From a virus, in the IMG/VR virus record IMGVR_UViG_3300047552_001252, positions 1 through 21,060 of that record: a stretch of 21,060 nt of DNA. One strand, 5' to 3'. Of this stretch, positions 2,984 through 5,902 are shown one piece after another. Each line of letters starts with the position of its first letter. Position 1 is the stretch's first letter. The notes beneath the pieces are model-generated. The model saw only the letters and a list, made by a program, of their open reading frames with translations, made no database searches and had not been told where the DNA came from. Both the position numbers and the translations under genes were made by a program.

Positions 2984-4174
2984 ATGACAACCGCATTATT
3001 AGAAAGCCGTTGGGGCGAAACCAAAGAAGCCCTGTTAGAAGGCTTGAATGGTTCTAAGAGAACTACAATGGGTGTGATCCTTGAGAACACTCGCAAGATG
3101 TTGAGCGAATCTGCTACAGCAGGTGGTACAGCAGCAGGTAGCGTGGCTACACTTAACCGTGTAATTTTGCCAGTTATCCGTCGCGTTATGCCTACTGTTA
3201 TTGCTAACGAGCTAGTTGGTGTTCAACCAATGACTGGCCCAGTTGCACAGATCCATACACTACGTGTACGTTACGCTGATGGCGTTACAAACAGTGCTGA
3301 TGCTAGCCAGACAACTGCTGCTGGTGACGAAGCATTGAGCCCATTCAAGATTGCTACTCAGTATTCTGGTAGCACATTCCAAGGTACTGGCGCTGGCAAA
3401 GCTAACAGCACAGCTACAATGGAAGGCGTACCTGGTAACCGTATCAACGTACAAATCTTGAAGCAAGTTGTTGAAGCTAAGACACGTAAATTGTCTGCAC
3501 GTTGGACATTTGAAGCTGCTCAAGACGCACAAGCTATGCACGGCTTGGACGTTGAAGCAGAAGTTATGGCTGCTTTGGCACAAGAAATCACAGTTGAAAT
3601 CGACCAAGAGATCCTAGGTTCTCTACGTTCTTTGGCTGCTACTGAGTACACATACAACCAAGCTACCGTTTCTGGTACTGCTACATTCGTTGGTGACGAA
3701 CACGCTGCTTTAGCTGTTTTGATCAACCGTGCTAGCAACTTGATCGCACAACGCACACGTCGTGGTGCTGGTAACTGGGCTGTTGTTTCTAGCGCCGCAT
3801 TGACAGTATTGCAATCTGCAACTACTTCTGCTTTTGCTCGTACAACAGAAGGTACATTTGAAGCTCCTACAAACACTAAGTTTGTTGGTACTTTGAACGG
3901 TGCTATGCGTGTATACGTAGACGGTTACGCACAAGACAGCCAAGCTGTTCTAGTTGGTTACAAGGGTTCTAGCGAAGCAGACGCTGCTGCGTTCTATTGC
4001 CCATACGTACCATTGATGAGCTCTGGTGTTGTTCTAGATCCATCTACTTTCGAACCAGTAGTTGGCTTCATGACACGTTATGGTTATGTTGAGTTGACAA
4101 ACACAGCTAGCTCATTGGGCAACGCTGCTGACTACTTGGCAGAAATCGCTGTAAGCAACTTGAGCTTCCAGTAA
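2984..4174 (+). CDS. 23: Major capsid protein, gp23-like
   Basis: The protein has 396 residues, shorter than T4 gp23 (over 500) and than many marine relatives. Family blocks are all present: ELVGVQPMTGPVAQIHTLRVRY near 76-97, FEAAQDAQAMHGLDVEAEVM near 176-195, RRGAGNWAVVSSA, and VYVDGYA followed by VGYKGSSEADAAAFYCPYVP and GFMTRYGYVEL near the end. The N-terminus is a propeptide with gp21-type sites; LSE at 40-42 followed by SATAGG is the best candidate for the mature start. A strong AGGAG (about 2968-2972) precedes the ATG. Codons are biased strongly to CGT, GGT, GCT and AAC, as expected of the most abundant virion protein. It forms the capsid hexamers. No gp24-like vertex gene follows, so pentamers may use the same or a distant protein. 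Confidence 0.96.
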   Translation: MTTALLESRWGETKEALLEGLNGSKRTTMGVILENTRKMLSESATAGGTAAGSVATLNRVILPVIRRVMPTVIANELVGVQPMTGPVAQIHTLRVRYADGVTNSADASQTTAAGDEALSPFKIATQYSGSTFQGTGAGKANSTATMEGVPGNRINVQILKQVVEAKTRKLSARWTFEAAQDAQAMHGLDVEAEVMAALAQEITVEIDQEILGSLRSLAATEYTYNQATVSGTATFVGDEHAALAVLINRASNLIAQRTRRGAGNWAVVSSAALTVLQSATTSAFARTTEGTFEAPTNTKFVGTLNGAMRVYVDGYAQDSQAVLVGYKGSSEADAAAFYCPYVPLMSSGVVLDPSTFEPVVGFMTRYGYVELTNTASSLGNAADYLAEIAVSNLSFQ

Positions 4175-4181
4175 TCCACCC

Positions 4182-4203
4182 AACAGCATCTTGCGATGCT
4201 GTT
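4182..4203 (+). terminator. First hairpin after the capsid gene
   Basis: AACAGCATC-TTGC-GATGCTGTT is a perfect 9-bp stem just after the gp23 stop. It lacks a following U-run, so it may act as an mRNA 3'-end stabiliser together with the stronger hairpin directly downstream. Confidence 0.55.
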
Positions 4204-4207
4204 ACTC

Positions 4208-4236
4208 AAAAAGCCCCTTAATTGGGGCTTTTTTGT
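4208..4236 (+). terminator. Rho-independent terminator after gp23
   Basis: AAAAAGCCCC (4208-4217) pairs across TTAATT with GGGGCTTTTT, and the T-run continues to 4234. This is a classic intrinsic terminator closing the head transcription unit and separating it from the desaturase gene. Confidence 0.88.
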
Positions 4237-4254
4237 TGATTAAAAATTTTTACT

Positions 4255-4263
4255 AGTAAATAC
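4255..4263 (+). promoter_or_regulatory. Putative late promoter (TAAATA box) of the desaturase gene
   Basis: AGTAAATAC with TAAATA at 4257-4262. It is only 4 nt before the ATG, where the other boxes sit 17 or more nt away. If used in the usual way, transcription would begin at or within a few bases of the start codon. Confidence 0.4.
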
Positions 4264-4266
4264 ACT

Positions 4267-5148
4267 ATGCAATCAATATTCCGTTATTCACCAAAAGACA
4301 TATACCTTATCTTATATGCAGTCTTTTTATTTTGCCTTCCTTACACATTAGCAATTTGGACTCCGGCATTTAGTTGGATCTTAGTTATAAGTTTTTTCCA
4401 AATTTGGTTTATTGTAAACTGTCAGAATAGTTCATTACATCACCACACCCATTGGACTACGTTTAAGAATTCATCGTTAAACAGAATTTATGAATTATTT
4501 TTGAGTGCAGTAACAGGCATTCCACAAAACGCATGGAAAAATACTCACTTGTTACACCATAGATATGTAAACGATAAGCCTGATCATACTGGTGCAACAA
4601 AAGATCCAGTTAGTGTTTATCGGGGCCGCAGAGATGGTGAGCTGGTAAATTTTTGGGTCTACTGTTTTAGAATGACAGTATTTTTCCAAATCAAGAACTT
4701 CTTTATTGCGTCTCCTCGACGTATTCAAATTGATGAGTTTAATAAAAGATATAACAGAGAGTTGTGGGCATTTAGACTTTACATATTGTCGGTGATTGCA
4801 ATTAATCCTTGGTTCGGGCTATGGACTGCCCTAGTATACGCACTGGCTTTTTTTGTTAATAATGCAAACAGCTACGGCGAGCATTGGGGCGCTCTTAATA
4901 ACCGAGGCGATACTACACAAGACAGTATCGGTATATACAGCAAATGGTACAACATTTTTGGATTTAATGCAGGACTACACCAAGAGCATCATCACAAGCC
5001 AGGTGTACATTGGACTAAACTTCATGAAGTCACTCCACTGCTTCATCCAGATAGAAAAATTGTAAACCACGGGGTGCATATTACTAATAATCCATTTTGG
5101 AGTCATTTTGTTGCTCTTATTAAAGGTGAAAAGGTTAAACCTAAATAA
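4267..5148 (+). CDS. Membrane fatty acid desaturase-family protein (auxiliary metabolic gene)
   Basis: The protein has 293 residues. The three histidine clusters of the membrane di-iron desaturase/hydroxylase family are present: HHHTH at 58-62, HLLHH at 94-98 and HQEHHH at 238-243, with a further GEHWG (His206). Hydrophobic segments near 11-31, 34-52 and 168-198 fit an integral membrane enzyme with the His boxes on one face. The family introduces double bonds, or hydroxyls, into lipid chains using O2 and an electron donor; the substrate cannot be read from sequence. The gene sits alone between the capsid terminator and a new promoter box. No Shine-Dalgarno precedes the ATG, and no in-frame alternative start lies nearby. 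It is AT-richer than its neighbours and uses AGA for many arginines where the head genes use CGT, suggesting transfer. Likely role, inferred: changing host membrane lipids during infection. Confidence 0.88.
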   Translation: MQSIFRYSPKDIYLILYAVFLFCLPYTLAIWTPAFSWILVISFFQIWFIVNCQNSSLHHHTHWTTFKNSSLNRIYELFLSAVTGIPQNAWKNTHLLHHRYVNDKPDHTGATKDPVSVYRGRRDGELVNFWVYCFRMTVFFQIKNFFIASPRRIQIDEFNKRYNRELWAFRLYILSVIAINPWFGLWTALVYALAFFVNNANSYGEHWGALNNRGDTTQDSIGIYSKWYNIFGFNAGLHQEHHHKPGVHWTKLHEVTPLLHPDRKIVNHGVHITNNPFWSHFVALIKGEKVKPK

Positions 5149-5151
5149 ATA
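5141..5151 (+). promoter_or_regulatory. Putative late promoter (double TAAATA) overlapping the desaturase stop
   Basis: CTAAATAAATA contains two overlapping TAAATA cores, at 5142-5147 and 5146-5151, and the first includes the desaturase TAA stop. It would drive the 222-aa virion protein, with a leader of roughly 75-80 nt. Confidence 0.5.
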
Positions 5152-5233: not shown

Positions 5234-5902
5234 ATGGGACGTCCATTAAAAAAGACATTTTTCGGTTCATTTAACACTGACGGAGTTGGTGGCGAAGGCG
5301 TAGCAACAGCTACAGTAGGTACTCAAGGCGAAGGATACTTTGCAAACGCTGTGGTAACATTTGGTGCACCACAAGTTGCAGGTGGTTCTACTGCTACCGG
5401 TACAGTAATTATTGGTAACGTTACAATTGGTAACGTAGCCGGTATTACAATTACAAGTGCTGGCTCTGGATATACATCTGCTCCGACATTTACTATTACA
5501 GGTGCTAACACTACCCCAGCTAACACTTTTGCAACTACTTTAACAAGTGGTGCAGTGTTAAACGCAATCAATGCGAATGCATGGGTAACTGGCGGATCTG
5601 TTGGTAAAGCAGCAGATATTGTTAAGCAAGCTGGCTCACGCTCATTCCGTGTAACCAATGCTGACGGCACAAGCAATTGCAAATTGGTGACCACTGCGGC
5701 TCCAGCAGCAGCAGGCGAAATGACTATCACTGCAACTTTTGCAGATGACAGCACATTCTCGATTGCTAAAATCACTGAGAACTTAGTATATGATGCAGAC
5801 GGTAATTCTTACCGTTGGGCTGACTATTCTGGTAGCAAGCCTGCTTTTGCAACAGCAAGCAATGCAACAGTTCCTGTAACTGTGTCTATTAGTAACAACT
5901 AA
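5234..5902 (+). CDS. Virion structural protein, beta-rich, unknown exact role
   Basis: The protein has 222 residues and begins MGRPLKKTFFG, an N-terminus often seen on small structural proteins of T4-like aquatic phages. Residues about 60-105 are glycine/threonine/valine-rich with SAGSGYTSAPTFTITG, a beta-strand repeat motif. About 130-205 form a second beta-rich region (SRSFRVTNADGTSNCKL and EMTITATFADDSTFSIAKI). There is no signal peptide, membrane segment or catalytic motif. AAGGAG at 5221-5226 gives a strong start. It has its own promoter box, long structured leader and strong terminator, so it is a single-gene unit. Host-optimised codons suggest high expression. It may be a capsid decoration or tail-associated protein; the sequence does not decide. 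Confidence 0.65.
   Translation: MGRPLKKTFFGSFNTDGVGGEGVATATVGTQGEGYFANAVVTFGAPQVAGGSTATGTVIIGNVTIGNVAGITITSAGSGYTSAPTFTITGANTTPANTFATTLTSGAVLNAINANAWVTGGSVGKAADIVKQAGSRSFRVTNADGTSNCKLVTTAAPAAAGEMTITATFADDSTFSIAKITENLVYDADGNSYRWADYSGSKPAFATASNATVPVTVSISNN

Follow-up and report, generated by a model that had tools for sequence, protein, structure and literature searches.

A desaturase-superfamily gene in the cargo slot beside the major capsid gene of a T4-like jumbo phage

Why does a phage carry a gene for a membrane enzyme of the fatty acid desaturase family among the genes of its virion? The question is raised by an IMG/VR virus record of 21,060 bases (hereafter the window), which derives from a T4-like jumbo phage and has such a gene on its plus strand at 4267..5148. 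A sequence-only reading of this DNA had described a 293-aa desaturase-family protein set among virion genes, and our searches agreed with it in coordinates, length, family and setting. The protein matched the Pfam family FA_desaturase (PF00487) with E=5.7e-24 and 85.7 bits, against a curated cut-off of 29.7 bits. No NCBIfam model matched it, the DesA-family equivalog NF049918 included, PHROGs gave no match, and sequence searches of the PDB returned no solved desaturase at a convincing E-value. In the window, an ORF at 130-1191 (from the ORF list) precedes the gp21 protease (1205-1831) and a gp22-like scaffold (1846-2955), both assigned by profile searches. These are followed by the gp23 major capsid protein (2984..4174, plus strand; PF07068, 1.1e-99), whose best reference matches are capsids of the jumbo phages PA5oct, MIJ3, Phosso and Vibrio 2.275 (66-69% identical). 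The head genes thus run up to gp23, then comes the desaturase ORF and then the fibre-type ORFs, which were also placed by profile searches. The first of these encodes an MGRPLK-type small virion/fibre-associated protein (5234..5902, plus strand; weak phrog_460 match, 8.7e-6), and its homologue is the first downstream gene in many relatives.

We observed that the three histidine clusters pointed out in the sequence-only reading are intact (H58-HHTH-62, H94-LLHH-98 and H238-QEHHH-243). In an alignment of 23 rows, comprising 18 phage proteins (the window's included) and five rhizobial ones, H58, H62, H94, H97, H98, H206, H238, H241, H242 and H248 are invariant in all 23 rows, and the histidines outside those ten vary. 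The spacing in the window protein is H-X3-H, H-X2-HH, a lone H206 and H-X2-HH, with H248 as an extra residue. In AlkB and stearoyl-CoA desaturase the two irons are bound by nine histidines spaced in this way, and the nine conserved in the window protein are its putative di-iron ligand set. The product would be an integral-membrane, non-haem di-iron oxygenase of the fatty-acid desaturase superfamily.

The desaturases of the window and of the related locus L003 are 93% identical in amino acids but only 47% identical at four-fold sites, so selection is purifying. Among pairs of the window, L002-L005 and L027, the C-terminal part is 77-95% identical, with four-fold sites at 30-62%. Within the window, L002, L003 and L004, the C-terminal part with His box 3 is 90-95% identical, compared to 54-62% for the N-terminal part in most pairs; by these comparisons the C-terminal part is the most constrained region of the enzyme. 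Recent recombination was considered as the cause of this C-terminal conservation and was rejected, as four-fold sites are equally diverged in both parts; constraint therefore underlies the identity. The same data bear on the idea of a catalytically inactive membrane protein with another role, for example in superinfection exclusion or receptor masking. A small membrane protein beside fibre genes, with an N-terminal membrane half that diverges faster than the rest, would suit such a role, yet none of the putative metal-binding histidines varies and the part carrying His box 3 is the most conserved, and we consider this explanation very improbable.

The AlphaFold2 model of the window protein has a pLDDT of 81 and a pTM of 0.83; only around residues 211-270, a stretch that contains His box 3, does the pLDDT fall to 52-64. 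AlkB (8f6t, Z 13.6; 8sbb, Z 13.3; 239 residues) scored highest among characterised structures, at a level that helical bundles can reach by chance (Z ~13). Stearoyl-CoA desaturase (4zyo) followed with Z 7.0, and its Foldseek match was weak (E 0.07). The best viral structure matches were giant-virus fatty acid desaturases, weak by E-value. Among enzymes that have been characterised, AlkB and stearoyl-CoA desaturase give the best structural matches and share the spacing of the His ligands, but their sequence identity to the window protein is only 10-15%. AlkB also pairs with rubredoxin, whereas neither rubredoxin (PF00301) nor ferredoxin (PF00111) was matched in the contig fragments of the relatives searched; the host may supply rubredoxin.

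Between gp23 and the desaturase lies a strong intrinsic terminator (4208..4233, plus strand) that is conserved in relatives and parts the slot from the head operon; the intergenic stretch containing it has a folding z of -6.1. The terminator proposed upstream of the desaturase is real. We surveyed the position behind gp23 in 80 capsid loci, a sample whose frequencies are not population values, together with the desaturase loci. In PA5oct the position is taken by a Hef-like homing endonuclease. At least 22 of the slot ORFs in the surveyed loci are homing-endonuclease-like, and ~20 other kinds occur there. These include SGNH-like ORFs and minus-strand TPR/glycosyltransferase ORFs; in other loci the fibre genes follow directly. 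Apart from the desaturase, slot genes were sorted into kinds chiefly by visual inspection; Pfam profiles backed NUMOD3 in L059 and Glyco_transf_9 in L010. The desaturase is not universal in the slots of the clade sampled. The position after gp23 is a cargo slot.

Separately, a minus-strand ORF with TPR and Glyco_transf_9 features, opposite to all its neighbours, was seen near the slot in many of the relatives, among them L010 (2696-3934), L009, L014, L015 and L032.

The cargo status of the gene follows from the unrelated genes at the same position in relatives and not from its codons, from which the sequence-only reading had also argued for acquisition. The gene is indeed AT-richer overall (GC 0.366), but its GC3 of 0.32 lies inside the range of its neighbours (0.27-0.40); the surplus AT sits in the first and second codon positions, where the composition of a membrane protein would put it. 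The stated preference for AGA (8 of 14 Arg codons) holds against all other genes (p=0.008) but not against the fibre genes (p=0.22). In a numerical comparison of synonymous usage, gp23 was the outlier (z 18.1, against 3.1 for the desaturase). With a neighbour-like GC3, a fibre-like use of AGA and an outlying capsid gene, the codon case for recent acquisition is weak, and we rejected codon usage as its proof.

We observed a sharp break in synonymous identity at the end of gp23 when the window (2984-5148) was compared with L002, L003 and L004. Four-fold identity is 0.71-0.99 in the head genes and 0.34-0.70 in the desaturase and later genes. The desaturase therefore seems to travel with the fibre-side module rather than the head module, as though the two recombined at the slot. 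Head genes are highly expressed, and tighter constraint on their codons may add to this contrast.

The T4 late -10 box is TATAAATA, and TAAATA is close to this box. Such a TAAATA lies at 4257..4262 (plus strand), 4 nt before the ATG of the desaturase, and is its probable promoter; counting L002-L004, L027 and L028 as well, the distance from box to ATG is 4-7 nt. Further TAAATA boxes overlap the desaturase stop (5142..5151, plus strand) and are the probable promoter of the downstream fibre genes. Across the loci of the relatives, TAAATA is present in sense orientation in 150 of 341 upstream gaps and in antisense in 16 of 341; over the whole window it shows no enrichment. The sequence-only reading had seen a promoter box downstream of the gene. 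As a sigma-70-like promoter this was rejected, such boxes occurring at chance level (9 found against 9.6 expected); what stood was a T4-late-like TAAATA after or over the desaturase stop codon, conserved in seven of the seven loci aligned. Judged from this conservation, the TAAATA box ahead of the desaturase most likely drives its transcription late in infection, in line with the late expression proposed for it earlier.

The box is found 4-5 nt before the start, with no ribosome-binding site, in the window (4257-4266), L003, L004, L052, L057 and L059, and likewise for the slot genes of L098, L112, L119, L123 and L127. This spacing is common to most homing-endonuclease ORFs of the slot and to both types of desaturase found there, and together with the missing ribosome-binding site it suggests that slot mRNAs are leaderless. 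Going by these sequence features, the desaturase mRNA is probably leaderless, as are the messages of other slot genes.

The other type of desaturase occupies the slot in L123 (6350-7060) and L127 (6270-6974), where ORFs of 234-236 aa belong to the DesA family. With NF049918, a model of the phospholipid delta-9 desaturase, L127 scored 401.3 bits, above the cut-off of 400, and L123 scored 392.8 bits, just below it. Both proteins match only positions 10-240 of the 385-position model, and the pKLC102 homologue has 397 aa. Both genes start 4 nt behind a TAAATA box, like that of the window. The DesA-type and window proteins share the Pfam superfamily and the slot, but the DesA-type His spacing (HRSQAH, HRKHH, HNNHH) is unlike that of the window protein, and the DesA-type proteins form a separate clade (100/100). 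In Pseudomonas, the substrates of DesA are the acyl chains of phospholipids in the membrane (PMC10634369). The strongest argument for a lipid role is this convergence: a DesA-type and a window-type desaturase in the same slot, behind the same box, favour the view that the lipids of the host membrane are changed late. That one slot among late genes has taken up two unrelated desaturases argues for a benefit of the activity to the phage.

An insulated slot, with its terminator and promoter, could on the other hand take any gene, and the desaturase might then be selfish or neutral cargo without a particular role in infection. The promiscuity of the slot and the patchy presence of the gene in the clade are consistent with this. 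However, the gene has been under strong purifying selection over deep divergence with all its catalytic histidines kept, and two non-orthologous desaturases have entered one slot. We regard neutral cargo as unlikely.

In the tree, a step that the sequence-only reading had put forward for placing the protein, the 18 phage proteins, including that of the window, form one clade (93/92); a rhizobial clade is the nearest well-resolved bacterial kin, and DesA stands apart. The proteins of L005 and L007, which lie in another gene neighbourhood, nest among the slot proteins, and thus the gene moves between phages. The window protein had no tblastn match at E<=0.01 in the 50,697 phage records of INPHARED, and P0002 had none there at E<=0.1; with the absence of a PHROG match, this makes the branch distinct from the desaturases of sequenced phages. 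A search of 198 Bacteroidota genomes gave no match at E<=1e-12. The nearest cellular relatives are 'fatty acid desaturases' of rhizobial plasmids (WP_173993813.1 of Agrobacterium fabrum and kin), which share with the window protein an N-terminal F-x5-D, all nine histidines and H248. They are only ~27-31% identical to it and, unlike the window gene, lie within a conserved operon. This operon encodes a two-component system, a HAD phosphatase, a class III aminotransferase, an arginase, EamA proteins, an alpha/beta hydrolase, a GNAT protein and usually a CFA synthase.

Two other phage settings were recorded. The phage of L005 (L005 34-6273, with 19 tRNA genes; L039 218-1048 and 3436-4233) also has an ORF resembling Rieske/ring hydroxylases, ORFs that look GNAT-like by eye and, ~12 kb from the window-type gene, a second, DesA-like desaturase, which does match phage-record desaturases. 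L033 (1002-5386) and L042 (3753-8102) have a tail-side cluster of a cupin-like protein, a radical SAM enzyme (PF04055), two unknown ORFs and a more distant relative of the desaturase; the cluster looks like a small biosynthetic pathway.

Some members of the desaturase superfamily serve secondary metabolism, such as RtxC of rhizobitoxine synthesis. The window enzyme could similarly be a tailoring oxygenase that hydroxylates or desaturates a non-membrane substrate, be it a small molecule, a peptide, a glycan intermediate or a component of the virion or fibre. Distant relatives that sit among pathway-like genes, in L033/L042 and in rhizobia, fit small-molecule tailoring as well as lipids. The radical SAM, cupin-like and unknown enzymes of the former, the aminotransferase/arginase/hydrolase/GNAT operon of the latter, and the Rieske-like and GNAT-like ORFs and second desaturase of L005's phage all point this way, as does the slot itself, which adjoins the fibre genes and forms one divergent module with them. 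However, no such partner genes flank the desaturase in the window, L001-L004 or L027, where it stands alone, and the slot of sister phages holds a DesA-type lipid desaturase; we find a tailoring role, the chief rival to lipid modification, possible but doubtful. A broader version takes in the range of settings, namely the jumbo post-gp23 slot, the tRNA-rich phage of L005 and the tail-side clusters with radical SAM enzymes. It holds that a phage-specific desaturase branch has spread among unrelated phages and, instead of acting on bulk membrane lipids, works as a tailoring oxygenase in small phage-encoded pathways, where its target might be the virion or a molecule of the envelope. The branch is phage-specific as far as searches of plasmids, phages and viral contigs and a single pattern-based scan of genomes go, and we hold this version to be rather improbable.

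We lean, with modest confidence, towards a late-expressed membrane acyl desaturase or hydroxylase that alters the lipids of the host membrane. In the window, L001-L004 and L027 no pathway genes adjoin the desaturase, which favours a substrate common to all hosts. Late transcription from the gene's TAAATA box would yield an enzyme inserted into the host inner membrane, which would use O2 and a host electron donor on the acyl chains of membrane lipids. Desaturation of these chains would be the reaction, hydroxylation being less likely, and the benefit could be a change in membrane fluidity or composition during virion assembly or preparation for lysis.

The sequence-only reading called such a gene an unusual way to alter host membranes; if unprecedented was meant, this does not hold. 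Desaturases have been published from cyanophages (Roitman 2018 as cited in PMC8228385 and PMC11480375), from Arctic viruses (vFAD, with His boxes reported as intact; PMC7300359) and from phages or viruses of Lake Baikal (PMC7678222). They are phage- or virus-borne with a proposed alteration of the host membrane, like the window gene, and the idea of a phage desaturase is therefore not new. The descriptions consulted mention no slot beside gp23 for them. Within the reach of our searches, what is new is the branch, its place next to the capsid gene of jumbo phages, and the presence of a further, unrelated desaturase at that place.

The slot offers a stereotyped terminator, late box and start codon beside the most conserved phage gene, and therefore phage cargo at this position is easy to survey. 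With the desaturase gene itself, the idea that T4-like jumbo phages may rework the membranes of their hosts has a clear case that can be put to the test.
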